Source: a bacterium (GTDB taxonomy: Bacteria; UBA4055). From it: a stretch of DNA of 58,607 nucleotides. Where the stretch lies: contig JAKQBN010000057.1 in the NCBI GenBank assembly GCA_029559475.1, positions 1 through 58,607 of the forward strand, written 5' to 3'. A model generated the notes under the pieces. It was given only the letters and a program-made list of their open reading frames with translations. It ran no database searches and was not told the origin of the DNA. The stretch's first letter is position 1; each line of letters starts with the position of its first letter. Positions 2,343 to 19,002 of the stretch are shown here, piece after piece. A program made the position numbers and the translations under genes.

Positions 2343-5300
2343 TTATTTATCTGCAACCTGACTCCAATGAACCGTGACAGGTTTGTATCTGTAAGGCTCA
2401 TATCCGTTATATTCATTTTCATTGTTGCACATTAGTTCAACCTGTCTGATGACGGTTTCGATCGCGCCTTTGGTCTGCTCGGGCGGATATTTATATTTTT
2501 TCAACAGTCTTTTTATATTCTTGCGCATATTGGCTCTGGCACTTTCTTTTACCTGCCAGTCAACCGTGATGCTGCTCCTGATGGATTCCGTGAGTTCGTG
2601 CGCGATCTGCTTTAATATTTCATCCGACATGAAATCTTTGACGGTCATATCCTGAGTGAGTGCATCGTAGAAAGCTTTTTCGTCTTCACTCAAGCCGAGA
2701 ACCTGACCTTCTTTGTGCATAGCATCAAAATCCTTCGCCATTTTGATCAGAGCTTCGATGACTTCAAGATTGGTGATTGCTTTATTTTGATACTGGAGCA
2801 AAGCTCTTTTGAGCTTTTCTGAAAACTTTTCGGATTGTACGAGATTTTTTCTTGCCGCAAGCTTGATACGACCGTCAATGAGCCTCTTTAAAAGTTCAAC
2901 GGCAAGGTTCTTTAATTTCATGTTCCTGACTTCTTCCAAAAACTCGTCTGACATGATAGACAATTCAGGGCGTCCTAAGCCTGTTCCATCAAGAATGTCG
3001 ATCACTTCCTCAGAAACTATTGAATTCGAGACCATCTGCTTCATTCGTGCGTTTATTTCTTCGAAAGTAAGTTTTTTCTTCTTAATAAGATCATCCGTCT
3101 CGAGCTTGACTATGCTTGCTTTTACGGCTTTGAAATAGCTTACTTCAAAATCAATCTGCCTTCCTTCCTTCGTGGCTGAACATAATCCGTGAGATTTTGC
3201 GAGTTCAATAGTAAATTTCATGAAATCGAGTTTGACATTTTCGCCATGTCCGAAAATATGGTTCATTCCGCCGATTATAGCATGAATTCTGTCTCTGTCG
3301 CTCCCCTTGATCTTCGAAATGTAATCATAACCATGAAACATTCCTTTGACGATCTCATATTTTTCGAGCATTACCGCGATTGCCTGAGCAGTATCTATCC
3401 CGACTTCTTTTTTATCACTGTCTGTATATTCTTTTAACGCTTTCTTTAAAGGTTCCGCGATTCCGATGTAATCAACTACCAGTCCGGCCTCCTTGTCCTT
3501 AAAAACCCTGTTTACGCGGGCAATCGCCTGCATCAGGTTATGACCTTTCATCGGCTTGTCAATGTAGATCGCGTTCAGCGAAGGCACATCAAAGCCTGTC
3601 AGCCACATATCGCGGACTAATACAAGCTTCAGTTCGTCTTTTACATCCTTGAACCTTTTTGCCAGATCATCCCTGTCGGGTTTATTATGTACATGTTTCT
3701 GCCATTCGGCAGGATCGGACGCGCTTCCGGTCATCACTATTTTTATTTTTCCTTTGTCTTTATCTTCGCTGTGCCAGTCCGGCCTTAATTTTATTATCTC
3801 GTTATAAAGATCAATGCAGATCCTTCTGCTCATACAGACTACCATTGCCTTACCGAACATATTTTTCTGTCTTGCTTCAAAATGGTCAACTATATCTTCC
3901 GCAAGCTGCTTTACCCTCGGCATTGCTCCGACGACCGCTTCAAGTCTCCCCCACTTCGATTTGAGCTTGTTTCTCGTATATTCTTCATGCCCTTCTGTGA
4001 GTTCATCTATTTCATCGTCAAGTTCATCAAAGTTGATCGAATCGTCAAGATTGAGCTTAATTATTCTGTTCTCGTAATATATTTTGACCGTACTTTTATC
4101 TTCAACCGCTCTTGTCATATCATAGATATCAATGTAATTTCCGAATACGGCAGGAGTGGATTTGTCTTCAAATTCAATAGGCGTTCCAGTGAATCCTATA
4201 AAACTCGCATTGGGCAGAGCCTCCCGCATATATTTAGCGTAACCGTATTTTATTGCACCCGAATCTTTCGTCACACTTTTTAAACCGTACTGGCTTCTGT
4301 GAGCTTCATCGGCTATGACAATCACATTTCGTCTCGTGCACAGAACAGGCATAGTATCCTCGTCCTCGCCCGGCGTGAATTTCTGAATCGTAGTAAAAAG
4401 AACTCCGCCGCTTTCCCTGTCGAGCATTTCCCTTAAAGTCCGTCTTGAATCCGCCTGAATAGGAATTTGCCTTAAAATATCCGCCGACTTTGAAAAGGTG
4501 GAAAACAACTGCTGATCGAGATCGTTCCTGTCGGTTAAAAATATCAGAGTAGGATTATCCAGCTCTCTGATCAGCCCGCCGGCATAGAACACCATCAGCA
4601 GACTTTTACCCGACCCTTGAGTATGCCAGATCACGCCTATCTTTCTGTCCCCCGTCTCACTTATAGCTTTTTTCGTGCTTAAAATAGCTTTCTTCACCCC
4701 GAAATACTGATGATAGCCCGTCATTATCTTAATATAGCTATCCTTATCATCCGCCTGAAACAATATCGAACTTCTAAGAATATCCAAAAGCCTTTCCCTG
4801 TCAAACAAACCTCTTATCAGTGTATCGTACTGCGGAACCGTAACAGGCTCGATATTCACACCGTCAACCGTCCTCCACATCTTGAACCATTCCTGATTTG
4901 AAGTTACAGTACCAACTTTCGCATTTATCCCGTCAGAAATAATGCTGAACGCGTTGTAATTAAAAAGTGTCGGAATATCAGACTGATAAGTCTTAATCTG
5001 ATTATAAGCCTTCTCTGTCGTAGCTTCCTCAACGCTGGCTGACTTAAGCTCAATCACAGAAAAAGGGATCCCGTTCACAAAAACCACAAGATCCGGCCTC
5101 CTGTCGTGCTTCTCAATCACAGTGAACTGATTTACAACCAGAAAATTATTATTACAAATATCAGCAGTATCGAACAAATAAACTTTCTTATGCTTTTCCG
5201 CACCATAATCACGAAATGAAACATCAATACCGTCAGTCACAAATTTATGAAAAGTCTTATTGTTAATAAGCATAGACGGAGAATCAAGATGAAGAACCTT

Positions 5301-5516
5301 CTTCACAGCCTCATTTATCGCTTCATCAGGCACACCGGCATTTATCCTCTTAAGACCTGACACCAGCCTGTCCTTTAAAACAACATCAAGATAACTCTCA
5401 CGCTCTTTGAACATGCCGTCCGGCGAAATATCCGGCCCAAACTTATATTCATAGCCAAGAGATTCGAATATCTCGATACAACTCTTCTCTAAACCGTCTT
5501 CCGTAAAATAATTCAT
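2343..5516 (-). CDS. hsdR: type I restriction endonuclease subunit R (HsdR)
   Basis: The 1057-residue product is the translocase/nuclease subunit of a type I restriction-modification enzyme. Visible features in order are a PD-(D/E)xK nuclease domain at about residues 135-160 ([10 protein letters not shown]... VIELKSA), Walker A ([11 protein letters not shown], near 300), a DEAH box ([11 protein letters not shown], near 400), FTGTP, and the superfamily 2 motif VI ([10 protein letters not shown]). The C-terminal helical part that contacts the methylase core is present. Its ATG overlaps the stop codon of the PIN gene by one base (TAATG), so it is translationally coupled to the cargo. It closes the operon that begins with hsdM. 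Nothing in the sequence suggests inactivation. Confidence 0.95.
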
Positions 5517-6055
5517 TATGCAATAACGAGTTTGTTATTGGCTGTGAGGATATCAATATCTGCACTTCTAAAATCAATGTCATTGGTAAGAAGTATAAAA
5601 TTATTTTCTTTGCATATTTCAAGTATAACTTTGTCAGAAAAATCCATTTGATCAATAATCATAAGCTTGGCTAAATCATCTTTTGTAAATAACTTTCCTA
5701 CGAATTCGAAGCGTGTTAAGATAGTATTTTTAAACAAACTATAAATTTCTTCAATTGTATCTTGACCAGCCTGACTGTCTCTATATGCTTTTTTCTCTAA
5801 TTTGTAATTCTTATGCTTTTCTTTATATTTCTCATACTCAGTAGTGAACGATCTGTTAAAAACCTCAGACATTACTGTCAAATCTATCATTATATTGTTG
5901 CCATTATCCATTAGTTTTTTGAAAACGGTAGCATATATAGTTTCGTAAACTTCTTTGCCTGTTGGCCAAAAAAGATAGATAATTATATTCGCATCAAAAA
6001 ATATTTGCCTTCCTTTCAATTCAGGGATTCTATCATGACTGTATTTTACACTCAT
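5516..6055 (-). CDS. PIN-domain protein (putative RNase effector of a GHKL/STAS-like/PIN module)
   Basis: The 179-residue product has a PIN-like nuclease fold signature: Asp21 in IFFDANIII, Glu64 in [10 protein letters not shown], Asp141 in the DFSDKVI segment and Asp159/Asp161 in LLTNDIDF. These are the four acidic positions that bind metal in VapC-type RNases. I chose the ATG at 6055 because GGGGAGAAG lies just upstream and the preceding gene ends at 6057; the longer frame back to 6163 would overlap that gene by over 100 bp. The gene overlaps hsdR by one base. The family assignment is good; RNA cleavage, and control by the two upstream proteins, are inference. Confidence 0.8.
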
Positions 6056-6056
6056 T

Positions 6057-6410
6057 TTACTTCTCCCCAAGTATTTCATCAATTGACTTTCTAAGCCTCT
6101 CCTCGGGATCCTTGTAGAATACTTTTGCGGTATCAGTAACTCTTTTAATCCTTTTAGCATCATCAGGAGCTATATCCTTGACTTCCATGCTAGATCTTAT
6201 TTTGTCCTCAGGATAATCTCTATAAAGCTGACCTACCGCTGTGTTTAGAAAAGCGGTTGTGATCATTTCAATGTTTTGAAATGACAATGATATTCTTTTG
6301 TTTTCATCAAAACCTTTTTTTATCTTTTCGTAAACTTTTTGCCCATCTTCAGCTTCGATGCATAGTTGACTACCTACGATATTGTATATGAACAGTTCTA
6401 TTGTTTCCAT
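6057..6410 (-). CDS. STAS-like DUF4325 domain protein
   Basis: The 117-residue product resembles the STAS-like DUF4325 family, small proteins commonly found beside GHKL ATPases. Residues 36-75 (RISLSFQNIEMITTAFLNTAVGQLY) match the typical beta-helix pattern in which a STAS protein presents Thr/Ser residues at the start of a helix. It follows the ATPase gene by 8 bp, with an AGGAG ribosome site that overlaps the ATPase stop, and precedes the PIN gene by one base. STAS/GHKL pairs work as partner-switching modules in sigma-factor control. Whether this pair does so here is inference. The family call rests on pattern and context only. Confidence 0.65.
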   Translation of the reverse strand: METIELFIYNIVGSQLCIEAEDGQKVYEKIKKGFDENKRISLSFQNIEMITTAFLNTAVGQLYRDYPEDKIRSSMEVKDIAPDDAKRIKRVTDTAKVFYKDPEERLRKSIDEILGEK

Positions 6411-6418
6411 ATTTTCTC

Positions 6419-7291
6419 CTAGAATAAATCGTTATTGTTTATTTCACCTATTAATGAATAAGAAGCGTCATCATCCGTTCTTACGCTGATATTAATAATT
6501 GACCCCGGGAAACTAGTTGGGAAATCATAGTCTTTTTCTCCGGTTTCATCGAGTAGATAAAACCCATTGTCACTTACAATCTGTAATTTACCTTTGTTCA
6601 ATTTGATAAATTCAATAAGTATCGCTAGCCCTATTCCGCCTGAGACATCGCCTTTTGTTGAATTTTTATCCTTTATTGCCCATCTAATGGCTTGATTGGC
6701 ATTAAAATGTCTTCCAAAAGGTTCTAATGCGGAATTTACTACATTCTTAAATCCCCTACCTGTATCAACAAAAGTAAATTCAATTTTATTTTTAGCAGGA
6801 AACAATTGACCGCAAGTATATACAAATTTGGTATTACTATGAATTTGAGCATTGACATACAGCTCATAAATTGATTCAGTGATCTTCTTTTTTAAAGGCT
6901 GACTCATTTCAGGCAATTCTGGTCTATTTATTAACTCACCGAAAATATAGTTATTAAAAAACCTTCCGTCAGTAGGTTTAATTTTTAAGTATTTTATTGT
7001 TGTATGCCTGTCGTCGATTTCAATATCATGCCCATAGTATGATAAAAAACCATTCCTAAGAAGGAGATTTTTAATTTCAACATCTTTGATTACAAAATTA
7101 ATAGTATTCAAATTTTCCATCAACAAATCGGATACACTACCTAAGACGGCCGCCATGTTCCCGCCGAACCAATTCTCTATATGAACATTTATAGTCTGAA
7201 AAAAACCATCCTTGTAATAATCGTAAAAATCAATTATCTGCTTATAACTTTTATATCCGTTGTCAATATTTTCAAGCTTGTAATCTGACAT
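6419..7291 (-). CDS. GHKL (histidine kinase-like) ATP-binding protein
   Basis: The 290-residue product has a complete C-terminal GHKL ATPase domain: N-box E143-x3-N147 (ELYVNAQIHS), G1 box D176-x-G178-x-G180 (VDTGRGF) and G2 box GGIGLAI at 218-224. There is no dimerisation/phosphoacceptor His domain and no membrane segment, so it looks like a soluble anti-sigma-type or MORC-like ATPase rather than a sensor kinase. The N-terminal 130 residues are not recognised. It heads a tight three-gene set with DUF4325 and PIN genes, and a TATAATG element at 7315-7320 may give the set its own promoter inside the restriction locus. Confidence 0.8.
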   Translation of the reverse strand: MSDYKLENIDNGYKSYKQIIDFYDYYKDGFFQTINVHIENWFGGNMAAVLGSVSDLLMENLNTINFVIKDVEIKNLLLRNGFLSYYGHDIEIDDRHTTIKYLKIKPTDGRFFNNYIFGELINRPELPEMSQPLKKKITESIYELYVNAQIHSNTKFVYTCGQLFPAKNKIEFTFVDTGRGFKNVVNSALEPFGRHFNANQAIRWAIKDKNSTKGDVSGGIGLAILIEFIKLNKGKLQIVSDNGFYLLDETGEKDYDFPTSFPGSIINISVRTDDDASYSLIGEINNNDLF

Positions 7292-7320: not shown

Positions 7321-7369
7321 AATTTAACTCAAAATACAAAAAAAATAAAGTCTTAATAATGGATTCATC

Positions 7370-8572
7370 TCACTTCCCGCAGCATTTTTTATATTTCTTC
7401 CCGCTCCCGCACGGGCAGGGGTCGTTTCTTCCCATTTTAACATCGTTTTTAAACGGCAGAGGAGTCTGATTTCTATACCTCGTTTGAAGCTCGAATATAA
7501 CTGAATTCAGGTTTCTTAAAGGAGTGTTCTCGCTTATCCTTCCTTCTGCCTCTTCATAACCCTTAAAGAAATCTTCAGCAACCTGACCGTTATGGGCATA
7601 ATAATCCGCTATTTTAAACTCTATATTAAATCTTTCTTTCATATCGGCTCGATGCTGCCATAAATCACACCCTTTGCAGAAACCTGCAGCCCACGGCTGA
7701 ACAGCTTCAATATTATCTTCGCTCTCAATAAGCTGAACTTTGCTCCCGAGCAGATCCGCATTTCTTTCAACCTTATCATAAATCCCGAGCAAAGCATTAT
7801 AAACAAAAAGCGCAGCTTCGGTCGAATCGTAAATCGGATCTTCGTATCCTTCCCAGAGCTTATCCATCCAGACGGAAGGCTTGATCATAACAGGAGAACA
7901 AGCCAGAGATGACATAAAACCGTGCACGAACTCAGGCTTCATATCATATTTCAAAATATCATTCAGAGCTTTATTCAAATCGGGATATTTGTTTCCCATT
8001 TTGTGAACCGAATGCTTGTACAGATCGCTCACAAGAAACGATATAAGCACGGCTGGATTCTTCTCTTTGATCTTATCCTCGAAACCACCAATTTTATCCT
8101 TCGCATCTCCTGTCAAACTTGTAACTCTTTCGCTATTGTTAAATATATGAATAAAAGCAAGATTACTTAGCAATTCTGTATCTGATTTCAGGATGTTTGT
8201 GTCCCATAACTTTGTCCCGTATAAAAACCCGTCACTCCATTTTTTCGCATCTTCTCTTATCAATTTCGCAGGATCTTTCGAGATCATAATATGCGGCAGA
8301 TAATCACCATCCAGCAGACAGTAGGTAACATCGTCATAAGCCTGAAGAACCGCATCTTGTACATCCTGCAAATCTTCGTCATCAAGAACATTACCGCTGC
8401 CGTGTTCACTCTTAAAAAAATGTGCAGGCCAAATTTCCCAATCGAGTGGCGACGGAGCGCACGCAACAGCCGTAATATATCCGTGAATATAATCCGCATC
8501 AAAATCACCCGCGCCTTTTTCCTTCAAAAACGCTTCTACATCCTCAAAAATCGTTTTATCATCGTTTGTCAT
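7370..8572 (-). CDS. tandem UPF0149 (YecA-like) protein with C-terminal SEC-C zinc motif
   Basis: The 400-residue product contains two related halves, about residues 10-150 and 185-330. Each has the UPF0149 hallmark ([18 protein letters not shown] and [17 protein letters not shown]). The last 22 residues form a classic SEC-C motif ([16 protein letters not shown]) that binds zinc and, in SecA, SecB. The single-domain relative YecA is common in proteobacteria and poorly understood. A duplicated form of this length inside a restriction locus is uncommon as far as I know. The gene is 59 bp downstream of the TIR-STAND gene and 78 bp upstream of the GHKL gene. Function is unknown; a role in handling secreted or nascent proteins is only suggested by the SEC-C motif. 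Confidence 0.75.
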
Positions 8573-8631
8573 TTTTTGTCCTATATTAAGTAGTTACGAA
8601 CCCGTCAAGACAATTTGAGGGTTTATTTGTT

Positions 8632-11199
8632 TCATTGATCGTTGCTCTTGTTTTCAATTTGAATTAGTTTATTTGTAGGAATCCCCAACTTCTGTTCTAT
8701 TCTCTGTTTGTCCTTATATTCTATATGATGGAGCATGCAATGGTGTACAATCATATATCTCACTACTCTCCTTGCTGTTTCTGAAAAATCGTCATTTTTT
8801 AAACGATCGAAGATTTCTTCAACATTTAAATTTTTATTATACCACATTAAAATTCCATGCCTAATTAAGAAAACGACAGGAGTGTCGTTTTCAGTATTGA
8901 TTTTTTCTAATAATTCATACAACTTATCAGAACCAAGAGAATGAACTGTTTTGTCAATCAACCCACCTATAAAAGCAAAATTCATATTCCAGAAAAAATC
9001 TGTTGCCAGTTTCTTTAATTTATCTTCATTTGCATTTTTAATTCCAGGCAAAGACTTAAGTAGTTTATTTTGGAGAAAATCTACTACTTCTGATTGACTA
9101 TCATCATTTTTTATTATTTCTATAAATGATGACAAAATTCTTAATTGTAGATTCATTGATGAAAGAAATATTGATTCAATTTTTTCTTTCTTAAATGATC
9201 CTACCCTATTTTTTAATATACGCCCTAGAACTTCAACAGTTTTGAGACTTTTTCTTAAATTTATAATTATGTCATTCTCTATTTCACTAGGAATTTGAAT
9301 ATCGTCGTCATATTCTTTTCTAATAACTTCAATTTGATCTTCTGCTTTAAGTTTATCTTTTCTTGCTTTCTCGGAGTTAAGTACTTTTGGCAAACTTGCC
9401 TCTATAATAGATTCCAGTTTTTCATCGAAAAAATCAAGTTCTTCACTTGAGAGTGTAGCTGGTTTGAATGAATCATAAAGAGTAATAGAAATTCTTTCAA
9501 TCTCGTCTATTACATAAAGACTTTTGCTATGATGTGACATAAATATTGCTATATATGCGTTTTCATCTTTGTGTAAGTTATTTATTATTTCATCGACAAG
9601 AATTTTATTATCATCTAGATTTTCTGCTAGAAATTTTGCTACGAAATAATAGTAAAGATAATGATAATTGAACGAGTAATTACCAAAGCTGTCTTTGATA
9701 ATAATTTTAATTCTTTTTAAAACATTTAACAGAACATTTTTGTGAATAGTGAAAATATATTCTTCGGAATACCTTTTTATAAATTCATCAAATTCATTTT
9801 CTGAAATCTCGATTATCTTATTTGAATGGAAATGATAAGCAATTTCAGACAAAAAGTTAATGTAAGTATCTATGTCATCATTTTTAACACCTTCTTTTCT
9901 TAGATACATATAAATTAATGCCTGATAACAATAACCTTGTGAAGTAATTTCCTGATCCAACGGTCGGTCAAGAGCTTCATATGTACTTATAATTGATAGA
10001 ATGAAAAACGGATAAGATGGCATAATCCCGTTACTCATTATTTTTCCTAAAGTACTGTTTACTACTTCGTTTGAAGAATCTAGTCTTTTATAAAATTCGT
10101 TTAGATTTGTAGTCTTATTATCACTCAAGTGTATCCATTTTTCAATCAATTCGTTTCTCATTGAAGGTGTGAATTCATTCACAGTATATTTTTTATAACC
10201 AGCAGTAAGTTCCTCGTCCCTAAAATTAAGTGAGAAAATATCATCTACTATTATAACACTCGTTGCATACAGCTTGAGATCATCAACATGCTTTTCTTTT
10301 TTCTTTGCGAAATGGAAATCATCTATGATCGGTATAATATATTTTCTGTCAATGTCCTCAAATTTAATTTCATCATACTGCTCATTAAATGAATCCTTGA
10401 TTCTATTATTTATCAGACCTTCGAACTGTCCGTTTCTATCTTGCACATAAACCGGCAAAAAATTTCTTTTCTTTAATTCTGTATATATTCTTTTACAAAT
10501 TGTTGTCTTACCGGATTGGTCTTGACCGGCTATAAGTAACTTAGTTCCAATGATTATTTCATTGATGATCTCATTTAATTTTACTTTCTTCTCTTTGTCT
10601 TTTAACTCATCATATTTTGTTAAATACGGACATGTGTAAATATCATCGAGAAATACTTCGTTTTTATTTGAATGAGCTTTAGACAATAATTCAGCACTAT
10701 TTAGGAATTCAATAGTATGGTTTGAATTTTCTATAGATAGTATTCTCTGATAAGCTTTTGCAGATTTCTTTATGCCTTCATAAACATCCATCCATCCATC
10801 GACCTGGTTTAAATAATAAGAAATCGGTTTGCCGTCAGTTGGTAATGCAAGAAATATATTTAACTCTTCTACATCTAACCAACCGCATGGTGACAGAATA
10901 ATCGGAATAATTATAATTCCTTTCTTTTTGTAAAGCTCATAACCTTTTCTAATTTCTTTTATGCATGAAGATGAGTCCAGGCAATTCGCAGAGATGAAAA
11001 AGCATATTATGTCGGCATTATCGAGATTATTATCAATATTATCCTGAAATTCCTGTCCAGCGAATAATCTCCTGTCATACCATTCTTTTATTAATCCGCT
11101 TGACTTTAAAGGTGCAATGAATTTTACAAATTCCTTTATATTGTCTTCATCCAAATGAGAGTAACTAATAAACAAGTTTAAAGGTTCGGCCTTTTTCAT
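8632..11199 (-). CDS. TIR-domain STAND NTPase (NLR-like immune sensor)
   Basis: The 855-residue product begins with a TIR domain at about 7-150 (LNLFISYSHLDEDN, then WYDRRLFAGQEF). Glu82 in the SSCIKEIRKG segment is placed like the catalytic Glu of NAD-cleaving TIR domains. A P-loop NTPase follows, with Walker A GQDQSGKTT at about 225-233 and Walker B IIPIIDDFHF near 290, then a long alpha-helical C-terminal half rich in Lys, Glu, Asp and Asn. This order matches bacterial STAND/NLR-like sensors in which a helical C-terminus detects a phage product and the TIR domain depletes NAD+. It overlaps the Abi_C gene by 4 bp (ATGA). It is markedly AT-rich compared with the housekeeping genes, which suggests horizontal acquisition. 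Confidence 0.82.
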   Translation of the reverse strand: MKKAEPLNLFISYSHLDEDNIKEFVKFIAPLKSSGLIKEWYDRRLFAGQEFQDNIDNNLDNADIICFFISANCLDSSSCIKEIRKGYELYKKKGIIIIPIILSPCGWLDVEELNIFLALPTDGKPISYYLNQVDGWMDVYEGIKKSAKAYQRILSIENSNHTIEFLNSAELLSKAHSNKNEVFLDDIYTCPYLTKYDELKDKEKKVKLNEIINEIIIGTKLLIAGQDQSGKTTICKRIYTELKKRNFLPVYVQDRNGQFEGLINNRIKDSFNEQYDEIKFEDIDRKYIIPIIDDFHFAKKKEKHVDDLKLYATSVIIVDDIFSLNFRDEELTAGYKKYTVNEFTPSMRNELIEKWIHLSDNKTTNLNEFYKRLDSSNEVVNSTLGKIMSNGIMPSYPFFILSIISTYEALDRPLDQEITSQGYCYQALIYMYLRKEGVKNDDIDTYINFLSEIAYHFHSNKIIEISENEFDEFIKRYSEEYIFTIHKNVLLNVLKRIKIIIKDSFGNYSFNYHYLYYYFVAKFLAENLDDNKILVDEIINNLHKDENAYIAIFMSHHSKSLYVIDEIERISITLYDSFKPATLSSEELDFFDEKLESIIEASLPKVLNSEKARKDKLKAEDQIEVIRKEYDDDIQIPSEIENDIIINLRKSLKTVEVLGRILKNRVGSFKKEKIESIFLSSMNLQLRILSSFIEIIKNDDSQSEVVDFLQNKLLKSLPGIKNANEDKLKKLATDFFWNMNFAFIGGLIDKTVHSLGSDKLYELLEKINTENDTPVVFLIRHGILMWYNKNLNVEEIFDRLKNDDFSETARRVVRYMIVHHCMLHHIEYKDKQRIEQKLGIPTNKLIQIENKSNDQ

Positions 11200-12005
11200 A
11201 ATTTCCCCTTCTCTTTCATTTTTATTTGATGTTCATAGCTATCTAATAGAAATTCACAAATTGTATTGGCACTATTAATAGCAAGTCTCGCATGATGCCT
11301 TGAAGGTTCATATTTTCTTGCATGTGCGTCACTCAACTCATTTCTTAAATTTGAGATTCCATTTACTATACTATTTAACCCGCTTAATATTTGCTTAAAT
11401 CCTTCAATGTCGTAATTAGCAGCTTGTAAATTCATTGCTTTTGCTATTTCATTATATAGTTTTAATAAATCCCCTTTATTCTTGATTTCATGCTCATATC
11501 TACTTGCTAATTCCATGAGGACTTGTTCAACTAAGGATCTTGCGTTAGTAATTGCGCCCGAGTAGTCTTTTCCTTCAATTTTCATATTAGATTTTAGGAT
11601 TTGTTCAGAAATGAATTTATGGGATAATATATCATCATTTAACTTTTTTGATATACCTGTTTCGGCAATATTAATTCTCTTATTTAACATTTTTTCAAAG
11701 TACTTCATACATTCTTCGTACTCTTCTTTCTTCTCTTGAAACAATTCATCACTGGATATTTTCTTAAAATACCTAAGCAAGTCTATGTTTAGTTTTGATA
11801 CTACTTCTTCAGTATATTTATTCCATACATATCTTAATCGATTAGCTTTTGATTCTCCGTAAGCATCAAATCCTGCTGCATAAACATCTAATCCAATTGA
11901 CTTGATAATAAACTTTCTCATGTCATTATTTGAGAAATTAAGTACAACTCCTCTATCAATAAGTAATGCTTCAAGATTCATTTCAATAATAACATCTATG
12001 TTCAT
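11196..12005 (-). CDS. abortive-infection family protein (Abi_C-like C-terminus)
   Basis: The 269-residue product ends with a helical block at about 215-258 (LRNELSDAHARKYEPSRHHARLA, then NSANTICEFLLD is the core pattern). This resembles the Abi_C domain of abortive-infection proteins, in which Arg, Asn and His are conserved. The N-terminal 130 residues are not recognised, and there are no membrane segments. The gene overlaps the end of hsdS and the start of the TIR-STAND gene by 4 bp each (ATGA in both), so it is translationally coupled on both sides. It may be the partner or regulator of the TIR-STAND protein; this is inference from position. Confidence 0.65.
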   Translation of the reverse strand: MNIDVIIEMNLEALLIDRGVVLNFSNNDMRKFIIKSIGLDVYAAGFDAYGESKANRLRYVWNKYTEEVVSKLNIDLLRYFKKISSDELFQEKKEEYEECMKYFEKMLNKRINIAETGISKKLNDDILSHKFISEQILKSNMKIEGKDYSGAITNARSLVEQVLMELASRYEHEIKNKGDLLKLYNEIAKAMNLQAANYDIEGFKQILSGLNSIVNGISNLRNELSDAHARKYEPSRHHARLAINSANTICEFLLDSYEHQIKMKEKGKL

Positions 12006-12835
12006 AAATTCACCCTTATTTCCCCACTCATCAGCTTTGGTAGCAACGCGTCTCTTGTTTTTGTTAGTGATTGGTTTTCAAGCTGATTATTTAATATTTT
12101 ATCATATAACAGTTTTACATTTTTTGAAAATCCTGATAATGCTACTTTACTTGGAAGTAAGATTGGCATTGATTTAATTATTTTTGAATTAACTGCTATT
12201 GCTATTGAAGAAGTACTGCCCAAACTTGTATAATTGAAATTCATCAGGTATAGATAAATATATTCTTTTGTGATTTCATTTTCATGCTTCATATTAAAAT
12301 GAGCTATTGCTTCGTTAGTAACCATTTCTTCATTTACAATCCCGACTCTACCGACTGTAAGTTTAAAACTTAAAACAACAGAACCTTTAGGCACAATCTT
12401 TATATTAAATTTCTTTATCGCATCCGATGTTAAATACTCTGATGTACTCAATATAAATGCACCAGAATTTCCTAAATCTTTAATTGATAACCATTTTGTA
12501 TCCTTTGGGTCTAACGAGAACCATTCTTTCTCATTTCTCGGTGGCGTTTTTCCAATATTTATTTCAAACAAATCATCCGCTACCTTCACACTCCACCCTT
12601 CGGGGATTTCTCCGAGTTCACTTTGGATCATTTTTCCGCCGGAGCTTTTGTACGGATTTCCGTTTTCATCGGGGAATTCAAAATCAACGAACCATTGTTT
12701 GAATATAGCCTGAGCTATTTCTTCAAGATTTTTATTCATTTTGGTATTAAGCTCGATTTTATCATCAAGCGAAGAAAGGATTTCTGCGATCCGCTTTTGT
12801 TCGGGTAGTGGCGGGAGATTTATTTGATATCTCAT
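12002..12835 (-). CDS. hsdS: type I specificity subunit HsdS, C-terminal part (after an in-frame TGA)
   Basis: This 277-residue frame carries the central conserved helix of HsdS (LPPLPEQKRIAEILSSLDDK, residues 7-26), the second target-recognition domain at about 75-225, and the distal conserved helix (LTKTRDALLPKLMSGEI). It is exactly in frame with the upstream 128-codon part: only TGA and five further codons (Asp Lys Asp Ala Ile) separate the two. An ATG at 12835 could restart translation, but no convincing ribosome site precedes it. The likely ancestral gene is 12002-13237. It is either a nonsense-mutated pseudogene or a split HsdS whose parts may assemble, as truncated HsdS proteins of some type I systems can. 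Confidence 0.85.
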   Translation of the reverse strand: MRYQINLPPLPEQKRIAEILSSLDDKIELNTKMNKNLEEIAQAIFKQWFVDFEFPDENGNPYKSSGGKMIQSELGEIPEGWSVKVADDLFEINIGKTPPRNEKEWFSLDPKDTKWLSIKDLGNSGAFILSTSEYLTSDAIKKFNIKIVPKGSVVLSFKLTVGRVGIVNEEMVTNEAIAHFNMKHENEITKEYIYLYLMNFNYTSLGSTSSIAIAVNSKIIKSMPILLPSKVALSGFSKNVKLLYDKILNNQLENQSLTKTRDALLPKLMSGEIRVNL

Positions 12836-12850
12836 AATTGCGTCTTTATC

Positions 12851-13237
12851 TCATCTAGGCATTTTTGTGCCTTTAGAAGATGCGACTGTGTAATCAAAGA
12901 ATTTATCGTTTGATAATATGTAATAAAGATACTTGTTAAATGTTTTAGAATTTCTACCTCTAAAAACAAGCACATCAGCTGAACAGCCGCCGTCAAAGCT
13001 TGAATAATAAAGTTTTTTAAAGTATGTTCTAATGTTAGAGAAAAGAATGTCCCCGCTTGTGAAAGCATTAACCTTACCTGTCGAAGGTAATTTTGAAGAA
13101 GTTTCTATTCCACCTCTGTTTGGCAGCATATTCTCAGTAGAAATATAGTTAGCCTCTGTAAGCTCTTTTATATCAATTTTATTTGTAGCAAAATCAGCCA
13201 CTTCGCCTAACTTATATTCTTCCCATTCATTATTCAA
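12851..13237 (-). CDS. hsdS: type I specificity subunit HsdS, N-terminal part (TRD1), ends at in-frame TGA
   Basis: The 128-residue product is the first target-recognition domain of HsdS (EEYKLGEVADF at the start, SKGTKMPR at the end). Translation stops at TGA 12851-12853, exactly where other HsdS proteins continue from the GT(K)MPR motif into the central conserved helix. The start is a TTG at 13237, supported by GGAGG at 13247-13251 with 9-bp spacing. This ribosome site lies inside a 21-bp repeat shared with the end of the zinc-ribbon gene. Without the central helix, this fragment alone should not bind HsdM normally. Confidence 0.82.
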   Translation of the reverse strand: MNNEWEEYKLGEVADFATNKIDIKELTEANYISTENMLPNRGGIETSSKLPSTGKVNAFTSGDILFSNIRTYFKKLYYSSFDGGCSADVLVFRGRNSKTFNKYLYYILSNDKFFDYTVASSKGTKMPR

Positions 13238-13314
13238 AATCTATATCCTCCGGTTCGGGTTCTTCTTATTCCTTTGATCTCCTCTTTCAAGTAGATGTGG
13301 TTAAGCTTCATCAT
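13234..13314 (-). CDS. doubtful 26-codon ORF coupling the KilA-N gene to hsdS
   Basis: A short frame (MMKLNHIYLKEEIKGIRR and eight more residues) starts at an ATG that overlaps the KilA-N stop codon and ends with a TGA that overlaps the TTG start of hsdS. Such overlaps could pass ribosomes from one gene to the next. The frame includes the 21-bp repeat read out of its original phase, so it may be only a by-product of the insertion. I see no homology. Confidence 0.2.
   Translation of the reverse strand: MMKLNHIYLKEEIKGIRRTRTGGYRF
13245..13265. repeat. 21-bp direct repeat, copy 2 (upstream of hsdS)
   Basis: The same 21 bases occur at 14169-14189 (core CCTCCGGTTCGGGTTCTTC as read on the plus strand). 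On the minus strand both copies read as codons for Glu-Glu-Pro-Glu-Pro-Glu-Asp. Copy 1 is the real C-terminus of the zinc-ribbon protein. Here the frame would go on Ile-Asp-Phe-Glu-stop, overlapping the hsdS TTG start. The copy also supplies the hsdS ribosome site. The two copies bracket the KilA-N gene. Confidence 0.85.
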
Positions 13315-14138
13315 TTCTCTCCGGCTTCCAGATGTTTCGTAAAATCCTGAATAAGTATTTTCATCTGTGATATTGCAATCCTGTTTAGCTGCCTGAGTCT
13401 TTCCTGCTGTTCAAGTCCCTGCTCAATAAAAACAGCATTAAGATTTTCAAGGTTGGCTAGGCAAACCAGTTGAGATACATTGGCATAATCTCGTATATTT
13501 CCTTGTTTGTCAGGATTTTCTTTCCGCCACTGCAACGCTGTTTTACCGAATATCGACATATTAAGCACATCAGCTTCGTTGGCATATACAAAACTTATCT
13601 GTTGAGCAGTAAGATGCTCCGGAATCAGATTTTCTTTAATTGCATCCGTGTGAATTCGGTAGTTTATCTTTGTAAGGCTTCGTTTTATATTCCAGTCAAG
13701 CTCTTTGGACTGCTGATTTTTTAGGTATTGAAATTCCTTGATTAGATAAAATTTAAACTCAACTGAAACCCATGACGCAAATTCTAGAGCAATGTCAACA
13801 TGAGCATAAGTGCCTCCATACTTTCCTGATTTTGACTGCAACCCGATTGCATTTGTTGATTCGATCCATTTTTGCGGTGATAATACAAAATGATTATAAC
13901 CCGCTTCATTTCTAAACAGGTCGAATTCGACCTGTTTGAAATTTGGATTATGAAGCTTTTCCCAAAGACCGAGTAGCTCTATTGTATTCTTGGTTCGAAT
14001 CCAGTTTTTTATAATATCTCTCGGAGCATCGGGATTTTTGTATTTTGCAATATCAGTAATGCAAATATAATCTTCCTGTTGTGTTTTTACAAAATTTACT
14101 TCTATACCTTTCACTTCAATTTTATCACTTTTTTTCAT
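13311..14138 (-). CDS. KilA-N domain protein
   Basis: The 275-residue product has a KilA-N-type N-terminal domain at about residues 8-115 (ICITDIAKYKNPDAP, NWIRTKNTIELLGLW, YAHVDIALEFASWVS). This fold is common in phage antirepressors and DNA-binding proteins. The C-terminal half is helical and unassigned. Genes of this type are often seen between hsdM and hsdS in type I loci; their role is not settled, with modulation of the system or phage defence both suggested. The start at 14138 lies inside a copy of the hsdM-end repeat, which provides GGATTTGAG as the ribosome site. Both flanks carry repeats, pointing to insertion as a unit. Confidence 0.8.
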   Translation of the reverse strand: MKKSDKIEVKGIEVNFVKTQQEDYICITDIAKYKNPDAPRDIIKNWIRTKNTIELLGLWEKLHNPNFKQVEFDLFRNEAGYNHFVLSPQKWIESTNAIGLQSKSGKYGGTYAHVDIALEFASWVSVEFKFYLIKEFQYLKNQQSKELDWNIKRSLTKINYRIHTDAIKENLIPEHLTAQQISFVYANEADVLNMSIFGKTALQWRKENPDKQGNIRDYANVSQLVCLANLENLNAVFIEQGLEQQERLRQLNRIAISQMKILIQDFTKHLEAGEK

Positions 14139-14155
14139 ATCTCAAATCCTATGCT
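14129..14155. repeat. hsdM-tail direct repeat, copy C (start of KilA-N gene)
   Basis: These 27 bases match copy A at the real hsdM stop (18976-19002) with one mismatch. On the minus strand the core reads GGATTTGAGATATGAAAAA. It spans the KilA-N start codon and ribosome site. Copy B is at 15906-15924. Confidence 0.85.
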
Positions 14156-14165
14156 ATTTTTGTTT

Positions 14166-14489
14166 TTAATCCTCCGGTTCGGGTTCTTCGACATCTTTTC
14201 CGCAGTTTGGGCAAATGTATATTTTATCCTTTTCCGTTTCTTTGAATCTGAGCCCTGTATCATTGTGTGAATACTCTCCGATATATGTTATAAGTTTGCC
14301 ATAGACTTCGACATCTTCTTTTAATCCGCAGGCCGGGCATTCGAGAAGTTCTCTGTCATTGGTGAATAATCCCAATGCCTTAGCCTGTTCCTGAAGTTCT
14401 GCTATTCTTTTTGCCGCTTCTAGTATTTCCGGCGGTATTTTAAATTCTTTCTCCGAACTTTTCTCCGACATTTTCTGTAAACTTTTCAT
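14166..14489 (-). CDS. small two-CxxC zinc-ribbon protein
   Basis: The 107-residue product has CPAC at about 57 and CPNC near 95, a treble-clef or rubredoxin-like zinc-binding pattern, and an acidic tail (EEPEPED). Its first 14 residues (MKSLQKMSEKSSEK) repeat the Ser-Glu-Lys-Ser linker of the protein encoded just upstream, as if the two were cut from one fusion. Its ATG overlaps the upstream stop by 4 bp (ATGA). I do not recognise a specific function; co-translation suggests it works with the AlbA/GHKL protein. Confidence 0.65.
   Translation of the reverse strand: MKSLQKMSEKSSEKEFKIPPEILEAAKRIAELQEQAKALGLFTNDRELLECPACGLKEDVEVYGKLITYIGEYSHNDTGLRFKETEKDKIYICPNCGKDVEEPEPED
14169..14189. repeat. 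21-bp direct repeat, copy 1 (3' end of zinc-ribbon gene)
   Basis: It is identical to 13245-13265. It encodes the EEPEPED C-terminus of the zinc-ribbon protein; in this copy the next codon is a stop (TAA), whereas copy 2 would continue Ile-Asp-Phe-Glu. Confidence 0.85.
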
Positions 14490-15910
14490 TCTATTATTTC
14501 CCAGTGACCTCCATGTGCAGGTCCGATATGAATAACTTTTTTCGCTTCTTTAAGCTTTTTAATAATCTTTAGAGTTCCCCTTTTTGTTATACCTAAAACT
14601 GCTGCAATTTCTTCGGTTGTGATTTTATTATTTTCCTTAATTAAACCTAAAATTATTTCATCCTTTTTTGGTGAACTTTTTGGTGAACTTTTTGGTGAAC
14701 TTTTCTCCGACATTTTCTCCGAACTTTTCTCCGACTCTTGCTGTTCAGTGTAATTTTTCTTTATGAATGACACTCTGAATGCGATTCCGGGTTCTGTCCA
14801 CTGCATTTGAATTTCGGGGTAATCGCTGAGGTTCTCGGAAATGAGCTTGAGTCCGTTTCCCCACTGTTCAATTATACCAAGTTTTTTGAATACGGGTGCG
14901 AGGGCTACATTCCTGATGTCGGACTGACCTGCATCCATATTGTCAAAGTCAACGGAAGGGAGAAGTTTGCCCGGGCTTGTTATTTCGATCTTATCGTCGA
15001 ATACCGCGATCTTTATATCTTTTCCGATCAAAGAATAATCCCTGTGTATGACAGCGTTTCGGATAACCTCTCTTAAAGCTGTTACGGGGTATTCCCACCT
15101 GTCTTTTCTGTAAACTCCTTCATATTCAGAACCCTGAGAGATATGCCGCAGAACGAACTGATATGCCTGTTCCGGCTGTATGCTCAATGGTGTTTCGATT
15201 GACTTCTGATCTATAAAATCACCCGGCGTTATGCCTTTGAATCTCGCGCACTCTATTTTTGCATAAGGGAACATCTGAGACCGTAATTTATCGTCCGAAA
15301 GTAGGATCAGAGCGTGTGTCGGAAATTGCACTCCCCGTTCGGTATGGAGTAAATTTAATTTATCAAGAACTGTGGTGTTGAATTCTTCATTCGTTATTTC
15401 TTCAAACTGCTTGGTGAAAGATCCCAGGCTGATCTGTTCCAGCTCTTTTTTGAGAACAGGCATTGAGTCATAAGAAATATTCTTCCTGTTGAGTTCCAAT
15501 CCTGCAATAATACTGTCGTCCGCAAGCCTGTTTGATGATCCGACACGGATGTAAGTACCGTTTTTAATGCTTTTTGCCTTTAAGTAGTAAGGCGGATTGC
15601 TGCCTTTATGAATTTTAACTACAAGAATATGTTTATCTTCATGCCTCAGAAAAAAGATTTCAGGCATAATGGCAGGTGAACAATTGTCATGTATCGAGCT
15701 GCTTATCTGCTCTTCATATTTGATCAGTAAAGATTCATCTATTCCTGTTATTTCTCTCGGATTGTCTTTAATCCCTATAAATATTTCACCGCCGGCATCG
15801 TTGGCAAAAGCAATTACCGTTTTGGTCAGATCTGAATTCGTCGGAAGCTCTTCTTTGAATTCAATCCTTCTGCCTTCAGGCTGAGTTATAATTTCAGTTA
15901 TTTTCTTCAT
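14486..15910 (-). CDS. Schlafen AlbA_2 / GHKL-type ATP-binding protein with C-terminal winged helix
   Basis: The 474-residue product has an N-terminal Schlafen AlbA_2 domain (RRIEFKEELPTNSD, then GGEIFIGIKD, residues 14-50). A divergent HATPase_c_4 region at about 270-365 follows (ALREVIRNAVIHRDYS, and WGNGLKLI), then a low-complexity Ser-Glu/Pro-Lys linker (about 390-415) and a winged helix (ITTEEIAAVLGITKRGTLKI). This architecture is a widespread putative transcriptional regulator often next to type I restriction genes. It starts inside copy B of the hsdM-tail repeat. The linker is encoded by 12-bp tandem repeats, so its length may vary between strains. Confidence 0.82.
   Translation of the reverse strand: MKKITEIITQPEGRRIEFKEELPTNSDLTKTVIAFANDAGGEIFIGIKDNPREITGIDESLLIKYEEQISSSIHDNCSPAIMPEIFFLRHEDKHILVVKIHKGSNPPYYLKAKSIKNGTYIRVGSSNRLADDSIIAGLELNRKNISYDSMPVLKKELEQISLGSFTKQFEEITNEEFNTTVLDKLNLLHTERGVQFPTHALILLSDDKLRSQMFPYAKIECARFKGITPGDFIDQKSIETPLSIQPEQAYQFVLRHISQGSEYEGVYRKDRWEYPVTALREVIRNAVIHRDYSLIGKDIKIAVFDDKIEITSPGKLLPSVDFDNMDAGQSDIRNVALAPVFKKLGIIEQWGNGLKLISENLSDYPEIQMQWTEPGIAFRVSFIKKNYTEQQESEKSSEKMSEKSSPKSSPKSSPKKDEIILGLIKENNKITTEEIAAVLGITKRGTLKIIKKLKEAKKVIHIGPAHGGHWEIIE
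14664..14737. repeat. 12-bp in-frame tandem repeats in the linker of the AlbA/GHKL gene
   Basis: Three perfect units of GGTGAACTTTTT type (encoding Ser-Ser-Pro-Lys) are followed by units containing CTCCGA (Ser-Glu-Lys). The period is a multiple of three, so gain or loss of units would change linker length without shifting the frame. A related segment recurs at 14450-14475 at the start of the zinc-ribbon gene. Confidence 0.8.
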
Positions 15911-15924
15911 ATCTCAAATCCTAT
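15906..15924. repeat. hsdM-tail direct repeat, copy B
   Basis: On the minus strand it reads ATAGGATTTGAGATATGAA, with the last ATG being the start of the AlbA/GHKL gene. It is 19 of 19 identical to part of copy C and shares GGATTTGAGATATGAA with copy A. It overlaps the stop codon (TAG) of the secreted-protein gene. Confidence 0.85.
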
Positions 15925-18900
15925 ATGTTACTGCTTGTTTTTTGAATAATCTTTTTCTTCGGTTCAGGTTTTATACTTTTCGCGTTTTCCGAGCTGGACA
16001 CTACATTATAGAATTTCTTTATGTCTGTGCCTATGGTTATGCTCCACTGGCTTTGAGAAACAGTTGCGAGATAATCAAAAGTTCCGTAAGGATCGTTTGA
16101 GCCGTAAATAAGATAAGAGTTCGCATTATACATATCGTCCCAGTTGATGGTAAGAATTCCGGAGTTTACGCTGATCGTAATATTAGAAGGACTGTCTGGA
16201 GTTATCACAGGAATATAATATTCATAGCAGCCCATATCAATGTTAGAACCGTACAGTCTGGGGTTTCCTGCCATGTCTGTCTGCGGTATATAAAGTGAAC
16301 CCAGAGTTTGTTCAGTTAAGCCCGGGTAGCCGGTGTCTTTGCACTGTGATATGCTTTGCAGTTCGTAAGTCCCCGAAACAAAGAGGGGATTTATGTCAAT
16401 ATTTCCTGAGTTACTGCCGTTATATGTAACACCAGTATTCAGCCCGAATCCGGCAATTCCGCCCTGTATATCATTATAGTAGAATGACGGGTCAGTAAAA
16501 TCGTCGTTCAGATACACCTGATGCAGCCCGTTACCGAAGATTATGTTATTTATGAATCTGGGATCCGAGTTACCGTCAAGGAAAACACCGATGCTGTCAT
16601 TGTCGGCTATCGTATTGTTGACGATATATTGAGGTGAACAGCCGGATATCTTAATGCCATGCCTGTTTCCAGTAATAAGGTTGCTGGATATAACTGGAGA
16701 CGAGTTGTCGATTATGATTCCGAATTCACTAGCATTCCCGAAAATACTGTTTGATACTATTAATTTTGAACCTCCTGTGATTCTCAAACAGGAGTTCTCA
16801 ATGTCGGATACTTTTATAAAATAAAAATTGGCAGTAGCCTCGCCATAAGAAGAAGTTTCACCTGCCAGCACATAACTTCCATCATTTGTCTTAGCTATAG
16901 AGTAGCAAATATCACTTCCCGGACCTCCGAAAGTCTTTGACCACAGTTCATTTCCGTTTGAATCTGTTTTTATCAAAAAAGCATCGGACAAGTAAGATGA
17001 TGTTGATCCGGTCATCAAGTAACCGCCGTCCTCAGTCTGTATTACGGAATTAGCACATAATCCTTTGTAAGTTTTTTTCCAAATTGTAATCCCGTAAGAA
17101 TCTGTTTTTATCAACACCGGAGATGAGCCTCTTTCACCGCAAATAATGTAGCCTCCATCCGCTGTTTGAATTATCGATTTTCCAGAATCTCCGCCAAGGT
17201 CTCTACTCCATAAATAAACCCCATCAGAATTTATTTTTTCCAAGATCGCGTCTCCAGTAGCTGTATAACACCCATCGCTTGTTTGGATCACGGAATTATA
17301 CCAAGAGGCAGATCCTGCATCCCATAGCATTTCTCCATCTGAATCAGTTTTCAAAATGTAAGATCCGCAGATCACATAACCTCCGTCTGCTGCTTGGATT
17401 ACAGAATTTCCCCATTCGTTTATAGGGCTATATGGTGCAGGAGTTAAATTCTTAGACCACAGTTCATTCCCGTTAGAATCTGTTTTAATTAGATATATAT
17501 CGCTTTCTGAATAATCGTTAAAGGATTTTGTGTCGCCGGCAATAATATAACAACCGTCTGTTGTTTTTGAAATTGAATATCCCTTGTCATAATCAGTACC
17601 CCCGTATGTTTTGGACCACAATTCATTACCATAAGAGTCTGTCTTTAACAGGTAAACATCTCCATAAGTTGAATAATCGAAATTATACCCGCATATTAAA
17701 AAACCTCCGTCATCTGCCTGAACACACTGCTGAGCGTTTGCTCCTATCGGATCTCCATAATTCTTAATGAACGCCGTCGATTCTGACCTTGTTTTTATTT
17801 CAGCATATAGTATTCTCGAACTGTCTGCGCTCGCAGAGTTGTGAAAGTCTATAGTCGTGTCTATAAACTTAACCGAATTACCCGGAATACCTGTAGCGTT
17901 CAGCCGTCCGTTTACATTAAGACCGTAAATTCCAATGTCATTAACTTTAACACCCGGCTCGATGGTAAGCGTGTTCGCCGTTTCAACATAAACGCTGTCG
18001 GATAATATGTACGGAGAATTTGCTTCGTACCATGTGCCGCTGACGCTGCCGGCTTGCACGAGAGTGCCTTTAATTGTAAAATACGGCGACAGGCCATAAA
18101 CTGAACTGAACATATTTGATTTTATTTTTATGCTGTAATCGGAACCCATAGTAAATGAGGGTTCGTAAATATTCCATCTGAATATTCCGTTTGACTGAGA
18201 TGTAAAAGTTTTTTTAATAACACTGCCTTTCCATAACTCGATTATGACATCTTCAGGTATGTTGTCGTTCCATGTAATGAGAGTGTCTGAGAGCATTTCA
18301 AGTACCGTTCCGCCAGTTGGAAAAGTCAGAGTAATATAGCCATCATCAATTAAGAAAGGTGAGCTTTCGTCAAATACCGAAGGATATATCTTTGAGGCTA
18401 TTTTGACAGTGTAATTCTTTCCATAAATGTCAACAGGAACGGTCCACAAGAACGATCCGTCGTTTGCCGCTGAAACTGCAATTGTATCTATTGGCGTTCC
18501 GGAGTCGTTTAGAGTTATAAGAAGGTCTTCTTGAAATCCCGTAGAATTCCATGTTATCTCGAACAAACTTCCTCTGGGGAGGCTTTCTCCACCTATTGGA
18601 GATTTTAGATCAATATTGCCGATGTTAACTGAAAAATATCCGTCCGAATAATCATAAGTAGTCGGTGTTAACGCGGAAGTTATTCTTATCTTATAGTTTG
18701 TTCCGTAAAGTTCGTTCGGTATGTCTGCAGTATATGAACCGTCGCTAGGGGTTAATGATACTACTGGAAGCAAAAACGATCCGTTCTGATAAAGGTCTAT
18801 TCTTACATCTCCTGAAATGTTGTCTTCCCACGTGATTTTGAACGAACTGCCTCTGTAAAGAGTCTCACCCCCATTCGGTGAAGTAACTGTAATGTAGCCG

Positions 18901-18950
18901 AACAGCGACATTGAGCATAGTGTTATAAACGATAAGACAATTTTTCTCAT
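15921..18950 (-). CDS. large secreted protein with Kre9-like, PQQ/kelch-like, beta-helix and FN3 regions
   Basis: The 1009-residue product has a signal peptide (MRKIVLSFITLCSMSLFG). Three Kre9/Knh1-like repeats follow at about 20-105, 108-200 and 203-295, each with (T/K)(S/F)P.GG..L followed by I(T)W(E/N/D). Next come about eight repeats of the KTDS.GN.LWSKT..G type (about 395-720), a right-handed beta-helix region (about 735-880), and an FN3-like domain (about 915-985). No sorting domain is obvious at the C-terminus, which is basic. Proteins of this style are exported adhesins or envelope proteins in FCB-type bacteria. Lying between hsdM and hsdS, flanked by direct repeats of the hsdM end, it is out of place and probably inserted there. 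Confidence 0.75.
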   Translation of the reverse strand: MRKIVLSFITLCSMSLFGYITVTSPNGGETLYRGSSFKITWEDNISGDVRIDLYQNGSFLLPVVSLTPSDGSYTADIPNELYGTNYKIRITSALTPTTYDYSDGYFSVNIGNIDLKSPIGGESLPRGSLFEITWNSTGFQEDLLITLNDSGTPIDTIAVSAANDGSFLWTVPVDIYGKNYTVKIASKIYPSVFDESSPFLIDDGYITLTFPTGGTVLEMLSDTLITWNDNIPEDVIIELWKGSVIKKTFTSQSNGIFRWNIYEPSFTMGSDYSIKIKSNMFSSVYGLSPYFTIKGTLVQAGSVSGTWYEANSPYILSDSVYVETANTLTIEPGVKVNDIGIYGLNVNGRLNATGIPGNSVKFIDTTIDFHNSASADSSRILYAEIKTRSESTAFIKNYGDPIGANAQQCVQADDGGFLICGYNFDYSTYGDVYLLKTDSYGNELWSKTYGGTDYDKGYSISKTTDGCYIIAGDTKSFNDYSESDIYLIKTDSNGNELWSKNLTPAPYSPINEWGNSVIQAADGGYVICGSYILKTDSDGEMLWDAGSASWYNSVIQTSDGCYTATGDAILEKINSDGVYLWSRDLGGDSGKSIIQTADGGYIICGERGSSPVLIKTDSYGITIWKKTYKGLCANSVIQTEDGGYLMTGSTSSYLSDAFLIKTDSNGNELWSKTFGGPGSDICYSIAKTNDGSYVLAGETSSYGEATANFYFIKVSDIENSCLRITGGSKLIVSNSIFGNASEFGIIIDNSSPVISSNLITGNRHGIKISGCSPQYIVNNTIADNDSIGVFLDGNSDPRFINNIIFGNGLHQVYLNDDFTDPSFYYNDIQGGIAGFGLNTGVTYNGSNSGNIDINPLFVSGTYELQSISQCKDTGYPGLTEQTLGSLYIPQTDMAGNPRLYGSNIDMGCYEYYIPVITPDSPSNITISVNSGILTINWDDMYNANSYLIYGSNDPYGTFDYLATVSQSQWSITIGTDIKKFYNVVSSSENAKSIKPEPKKKIIQKTSSNI

Positions 18951-18975: not shown

Positions 18976-19002
18976 TTTTTTTCATATCTCAAATCCAATG
19001 CT
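18976..19002. repeat. hsdM-tail direct repeat, copy A (original, end of hsdM)
   Basis: This is the genuine 3' end of hsdM (Ser-Ile-Gly-Phe-Glu-Ile-stop), where ATATGA joins the stop to an overlapping ATG. The ATG opens only a 12-codon frame ([12 protein letters not shown]) that ends on the start of the secreted-protein gene. These 12 codons resemble the start of the AlbA/GHKL gene, as if they were a remnant of it. Confidence 0.8.

Follow-up and report, generated by a model that had tools for sequence, protein, structure and literature searches.

A VapKSC kinase-antitoxin-RNase trio nested in a type I restriction operon, and the recurrence of its relatives in type I and type III restriction operons

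What are three small genes doing directly in front of the hsdR gene of a bacterial type I restriction operon, and do they form a known defence system? The genes occupy the minus strand of the window, by which we mean the whole 58,607-nt stretch analysed (contig JAKQBN010000057.1, one of the 83 contigs of a draft genome that totals 2.28 Mb), and lie head to tail between positions 7291 and 5516: a STAS-GHKL kinase gene, vapK (6419-7291, 290 aa), a STAS antitoxin gene, vapS (6057-6410, 117 aa), and a PIN RNase toxin gene, vapC (5516-6055, 179 aa). The first two are 8 nt apart and the last two 1 nt apart, and the vapC stop codon has one base in common with the start codon of hsdR (2343-5516) in the sequence TAATG, so that the tight spacing and the coupling to hsdR reported in the initial annotation hold at the nucleotide level. 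On the same strand are a UPF0149/SEC-C gene 5′ of vapK (7370-8572), the specificity gene hsdS (12002-13237) and the methyltransferase gene hsdM (18982-20505). No Rfam family matched between window positions 2000 and 21000, and a promoter/terminator scan, which found 90 signals versus 63.7 expected, is uninformative in this AT-rich stretch. No model in PADLOC (2023) or NCBIfam recognised the trio; a PADLOC DrmA match on VapK (E = 3e-4) was read as general GHKL similarity.

In the initial annotation the combination was taken to be an undescribed one. This is wrong as of June 2026, because VapKSC, in which a STAS-GHKL kinase is combined with a STAS antitoxin and a PIN toxin resembling VapC, has been published as an anti-phage system (Chambers et al., EMBO J, June 2026, PMC13373217), the only source for it that our literature search returned. 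According to the main-text passages of that paper, there are 289 vapKSC instances, and for 36% of these another defence gene lies no more than 10 kb away; Escherichia VapC is toxic and is countered by VapS, with which it forms the VapS2VapC2 complex seen in a crystal structure (PDB 9z7o); the rescue is abolished by an S48E mimic or by loss of the VapS C-terminus; and the three-gene operon gives about 2-log protection against phage Bas42, which is abolished by VapC D28A, VapS S48A or VapK F54A. The window trio matches this system in sequence, fold and synteny, and we therefore accept it as a member of VapKSC. It has the gene order K-S-C, the N-box Asn in the kinase, the S/T residue in VapS and the PIN acids in VapC, and its VapK is modelled as VapKSC requires, with the GHKL kinase domain placed after a STAS domain and no HTH. 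Like the instances in the published passages, which often lie near defence genes, it has the same genes and a putative S/T phosphoacceptor, this being a threonine instead of the Escherichia serine, an alternative for which PMC13373217 allows. It differs in being nested in a type I hsd operon and in its one-base overlap with hsdR.

The assignment of VapK rests on tblastn and HMM homology, synteny and an AF2 model. Its match to Pfam HATPase_c (GHKL) is weak (E = 0.018), but the model, built from 74 relatives with a mean pLDDT of 93.1, upholds the initial reading as a GHKL ATPase: over residues 95-274 its best solved match is SpoIIAB, the Bacillus anti-sigma factor serine kinase of partner switching (1til, Z 12.3, rmsd 2.8 over 133 residues; 1l0o, Z 12.2). 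Within the kinase domain (residues 96-277; 6461-7006), the N-box Asn N147 (6851-6853) and the ATP-site residues G219 and G221 do not vary among 83 homologues. What the initial annotation had not noticed is that the ATPase has a STAS domain of its own at the N-terminus (residues 1-95; 7007-7291), which, when modelled alone, had STAS proteins as its best matches, TM1442 with a Z score of 10.2 and SpoIIAA with 8.8, across residues 1-88. The STAS and SpoIIAB-like fold matches together therefore make VapK a STAS-GHKL kinase. At W41 (7169-7171) the 83 homologues have Trp in 63, Phe in 17 and Tyr in 2 cases, and by its position this residue is a candidate equivalent of Escherichia VapK F54 and CapK W68. 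No HTH family matched VapK or VapS, and VapK begins with the first STAS strand. A role as a histidine kinase was rejected on account of the SpoIIAB-like fold and the S/T residue in the STAS partner, as was an anti-sigma system, there being no adjoining sigma factor gene and the PIN gene being retained. The SpoIIAB/SpoIIAA and RsbW/RsbV pairs, which share with VapK the kinase fold, closest to SpoIIAB, and the STAS fold, control a sigma factor and not an RNase, and their STAS and kinase parts are separate proteins.

The second protein had been called STAS-like, in agreement with its match to Pfam DUF4325 (‘STAS-like’, E = 1.1e-18) and with the match of its family profile to Escherichia VapS (PDB 9z7o) over nearly the full length (E = 5.9e-25). 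Its T52 (codon 6255-6257) aligns to Escherichia S48 and is the putative phosphoacceptor. The column holds Ser in 50 and Thr in 48 of 102 sequences, i.e. S or T in 98 of 102, which in the alignment comes close to the ‘absolutely conserved serine or threonine’ of the PMC13373217 passages. Beyond its STAS domain VapS has just a short C-terminal region, and the winged HTH seen in CapS is missing. VapC matches Pfam PIN (E = 5.6e-5) and, as a family profile, Escherichia VapC in PDB 9z7o (E = 1.5e-10), to which its identity is low; the four acids by which it was initially recognised as a PIN protein (D21, E64, D141 and D159) are invariant in 88 homologues. In VapBC the toxin is likewise a PIN RNase, but in VapKSC the antitoxin is a STAS protein instead of VapB, and a kinase is added.

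Is the trio a recurring unit? A VapK single-protein scan of genome contigs gave no match and the conserved VapS motif did match, alignments that include the most divergent rows being too varied for a pattern scan. The VapS motif pattern yielded 223 relatives, of which the best 80 loci were examined. The three genes occur together in the order K-S-C in 72 of these 80 loci, with at least two of the other eight ending at a contig edge, and in 13 of 15 viral contigs fetched with VapS the whole trio is present head to tail. In both sets, the PIN gene is nearly always retained beside vapK and vapS. Recurrence of the same gene order rules out chance clustering, and the condition that in the initial annotation would have counted against a module, that the three families never occur together elsewhere, clearly does not hold, since the trio is widespread. 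VapS is a single-copy gene in fifteen genomes checked, save for one extra copy with stops.

We then asked how often vapKSC lies within restriction-modification (R-M) operons. HsdR, HsdM and HsdS profiles seeded from the window were run over the loci, together with Mod (seeds L084, L087 and L090) and Res (seeds L084, L087, L099 and L106) profiles, the seeds of the latter two having been confirmed beforehand by Pfam N6_N4_Mtase and ResIII. Apart from the window, 18 of the best 80 of 223 loci have vapKSC inside a type I or type III R-M operon. In five (L029, L034, L045, L052 and L067) it is flanked on the same strand by hsdS and hsdR; it stands immediately 5′ of hsdR in L057, and immediately 3′ of hsdS in L030 and L032, whose contigs stop too early for hsdR to be seen. 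In eight loci it lies between mod and res, intact or as fragments (L065, L070, L084, L087, L090, L094, L099 and L106), and in L073 and L089 it follows a mod remnant. R-M genes are near without nesting the trio in L079, where it comes after hsdR, and in L038, where hsd genes are on the opposite strand; L063, with a weak Mod match on the opposite strand, was not counted as nested. Separate scans of the nearest large neighbours agree with the profiles, with five HsdS and six type III methyltransferases upstream and 11 ResIII proteins downstream, five of them HsdR. Since the 80 loci were selected by their closeness to VapS of the window, the nested share is not a family-wide estimate. Many of the loci are MAG contigs, R-M subfamilies unlike the seeds would be missed, and the counts are not independent events, the loci being related by descent. 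A branch with support 99 separates type I from type III rows in a VapK tree that was built by a quick method and contains long branches. Among the type I rows, nested loci are interspersed with free ones (six changes), so the R-M association has been made or lost repeatedly.

The junctions are often tight. The vapK start overlaps an upstream frame in 12 of 89 loci, 10 of which are R-M-nested; nine of those 10 overlaps are 4-nt ones (ATGA or GTGA) with hsdS or mod, and one is of 8 nt. Three more nested trios (L065, L090 and L094) overlap the upstream gene if an alternative start codon is used. At the 3′ end of the trio, a single base (TAATG) is common to vapC and hsdR in L034 and L057, as it is in the window. 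The recurrent position of the relatives suggests that two defences have been wired together, and lends the initially proposed link between the trio and its neighbouring restriction system somewhat greater plausibility. Nesting of vapKSC in R-M operons is not mentioned in the main-text passages of PMC13373217, relative to which it is the new part, although others may have seen it.

In the window itself, the hsdS side of the trio is opened up by AbiJ, TIR-STAND and UPF0149/SEC-C genes. The interval between hsdM and vapK (7370-18950, minus strand) is a defence island grown inside one hsd operon, comprising genes for a 1009-aa secreted-looking beta-helix protein, a Schlafen/AlbA_2-HATPase protein, a zinc-ribbon protein, a KilA-N protein (PADLOC candidate PDC-S22, E = 1.5e-130), HsdS, an AbiJ-like protein, a TIR-STAND protein whose C-terminal part resembles NCBIfam DS8_antiphage/PDC-S60, and the UPF0149/SEC-C protein. 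The hsdS frame is broken by a single in-frame TGA (12851-12853) after the first specificity domain, with a restart ATG at 12835. This may mean an impaired type I enzyme, one that uses half subunits, or an error in the draft assembly. In a related Delongbacterium, from another genus of the same family (G003; locus L112, contig 138), which has an HsdR 88% identical to that of the window, the slot before hsdR (4407-5513) holds, in place of vapKSC, a gene that we read as rhuM-type because its sequence resembles the RhuM genes in L030 and L045 (Pfam RhuM matches). Past this gene, similarity to the window returns where the UPF0149/SEC-C gene ends (window 7367-7420, 94% over 54 nt). The vapK-vapC stretch is therefore an exchangeable cassette before hsdR, bordered by the UPF0149/SEC-C gene. 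In L030 and L045 themselves, the RhuM-like genes are located 3′ of vapC.

How would such a cassette work? By analogy with Escherichia VapKSC, in the resting cell VapS would bind VapC, its C-terminal helix blocking the RNase active site. Upon infection, single-stranded DNA (ssDNA) or other DNA damage may be bound by VapK between its STAS and GHKL domains, and VapK would then phosphorylate VapS, here on the putative acceptor T52; phosphorylated VapS would release VapC, which would cut cellular RNA and stop growth before phage is made. The initial annotation had supposed that a GHKL/STAS pair holds or releases the PIN RNase, and this partner-switching part of its interpretation, as distinct from the claim of novelty, stands, being matched by the Escherichia data in the PMC13373217 passages. 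In those passages, too, ssDNA is a proposed trigger of VapK. Since vapKSC is built into the restriction operon, we propose that RNase and restriction enzyme are produced jointly and that the former may serve as a second line of defence, much as PrrC does. The two could be linked without direct contact if restriction of phage DNA followed by end processing generated ssDNA, and a similar argument is made for CapK in the PMC13373217 passages. We regard it as highly probable that the trio is a VapKSC system, here nested in a restriction operon, where it may act as a second defence line. The wider proposal, that there is an R-M-wired class of VapKSC in bacteria and archaea, a built-in second line of type I and type III operons that is coupled in translation to the modification and restriction genes, senses ssDNA arising when restriction works or fails, and shuts the cell down by its RNase after restriction, is held tentatively, at somewhat below even odds.

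About as much weight as to wiring must be given to the view, which leaves the VapKSC part of our explanation intact and competes only with the R-M part, that the trio is a working but ordinary defence cargo or addiction module, to which the operon slot offers joint expression and transfer and nothing that ties its function to restriction. We put its probability just short of one half. The replacement of vapKSC by rhuM beside an 88% identical HsdR fits it, as does the TIR-STAND, AbiJ, KilA-N and Schlafen cargo of the window operon. Against it stand the overlapping start and stop codons shared with hsdS, mod and hsdR, which recur in distant phyla and indicate that coupled translation has been selected for, though this may serve expression alone.

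It is improbable that vapKSC is a guard of the PrrC kind, silenced by a type I or type III enzyme with which it is in physical association and freed by phage anti-restriction, with ssDNA not the main trigger. The hsdS/hsdR or mod/res position, with 4-nt overlaps on the M/S side and a 1-nt overlap on the R side, would suit such a guard, but most vapKSC loci among the best 80 of 223 lie outside R-M operons and so would have no such partner, and the same VapK family serves both type I and type III enzymes. To our knowledge, these enzymes share no subunit surface. PrrC in the EcoprrI operon does work in this manner, acting when the EcoprrI enzyme is disabled (PMC3874165, PMC2610378, PMC12707154), but Escherichia vapKSC protected as a three-gene operon, as the PMC13373217 passages report. 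As in the window, prrC encodes a translation-disabling RNase embedded in a type I R-M operon, and RloC is an RNase like VapC, its gene being rarely R-M-linked; both are ABC-ATPase-fused anticodon nucleases with another active site and without a kinase/STAS switch, and neither their ABC ATPase nor their Arg-Glu-His triad is present in the STAS-GHKL, STAS and PIN proteins of the window trio.

Control of the restriction genes by transcription in the manner of CapK and CapS, with the PIN protein an accessory, is very unlikely: CapKS is found directly 3′ of R-M systems in 88 of 443 cases and the window trio stands before hsdR, but the 117-aa VapS lacks a winged HTH, its profile matches VapS at E = 5.9e-25 and a MarR-like regulator chain at 0.41 only, and the PIN gene is nearly always retained. 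CapK and CapS are also a STAS-GHKL kinase and its STAS substrate, often beside R-M systems, but CapK begins with an additional HTH and CapS ends in a winged HTH, both absent from the window pair, and they repress a neighbouring operon, whereas VapKSC controls a toxin.

VapKSC has only just been described, and this locus and its relatives suggest that it frequently has its place inside restriction operons; if so, a direct link from restriction to a kinase-released RNase becomes testable. What the present loci add to VapKSC is the exchangeable cargo slot directly before hsdR and an archaeal copy, found in a Methanosarcinales MAG (L030) in the order hsdM, Schlafen/AlbA_2, hsdS, vapKSC, rhuM, although a binning error is possible; its Schlafen gene is 55% identical to that of the window. 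The nearest relative of the window trio (L028, genome G009, VapK 67% identical) belongs to a Candidatus Delongbacteria MAG and has a DUF4268 gene and an ASCH-like gene for neighbours (2-778 and 2719-3162), with no adjoining R-M gene. Other trios were found on a plasmid of Deinococcus gobiensis, on a faecal phage contig that carries no annotation and, beside an integrase, in Streptococcus prophage Javan172 (L009), where the PIN frame (5143-5637) is unannotated; prophage-borne copies similar to the latter are present in L020-L023. Within the family to which the window genome belongs, vapKSC is decaying in two relatives: in one (G005; L006/L027) vapS is intact (80% identical), with both vapK and vapC truncated, and in the other (G008; L110) only 26 residues of vapS are left.
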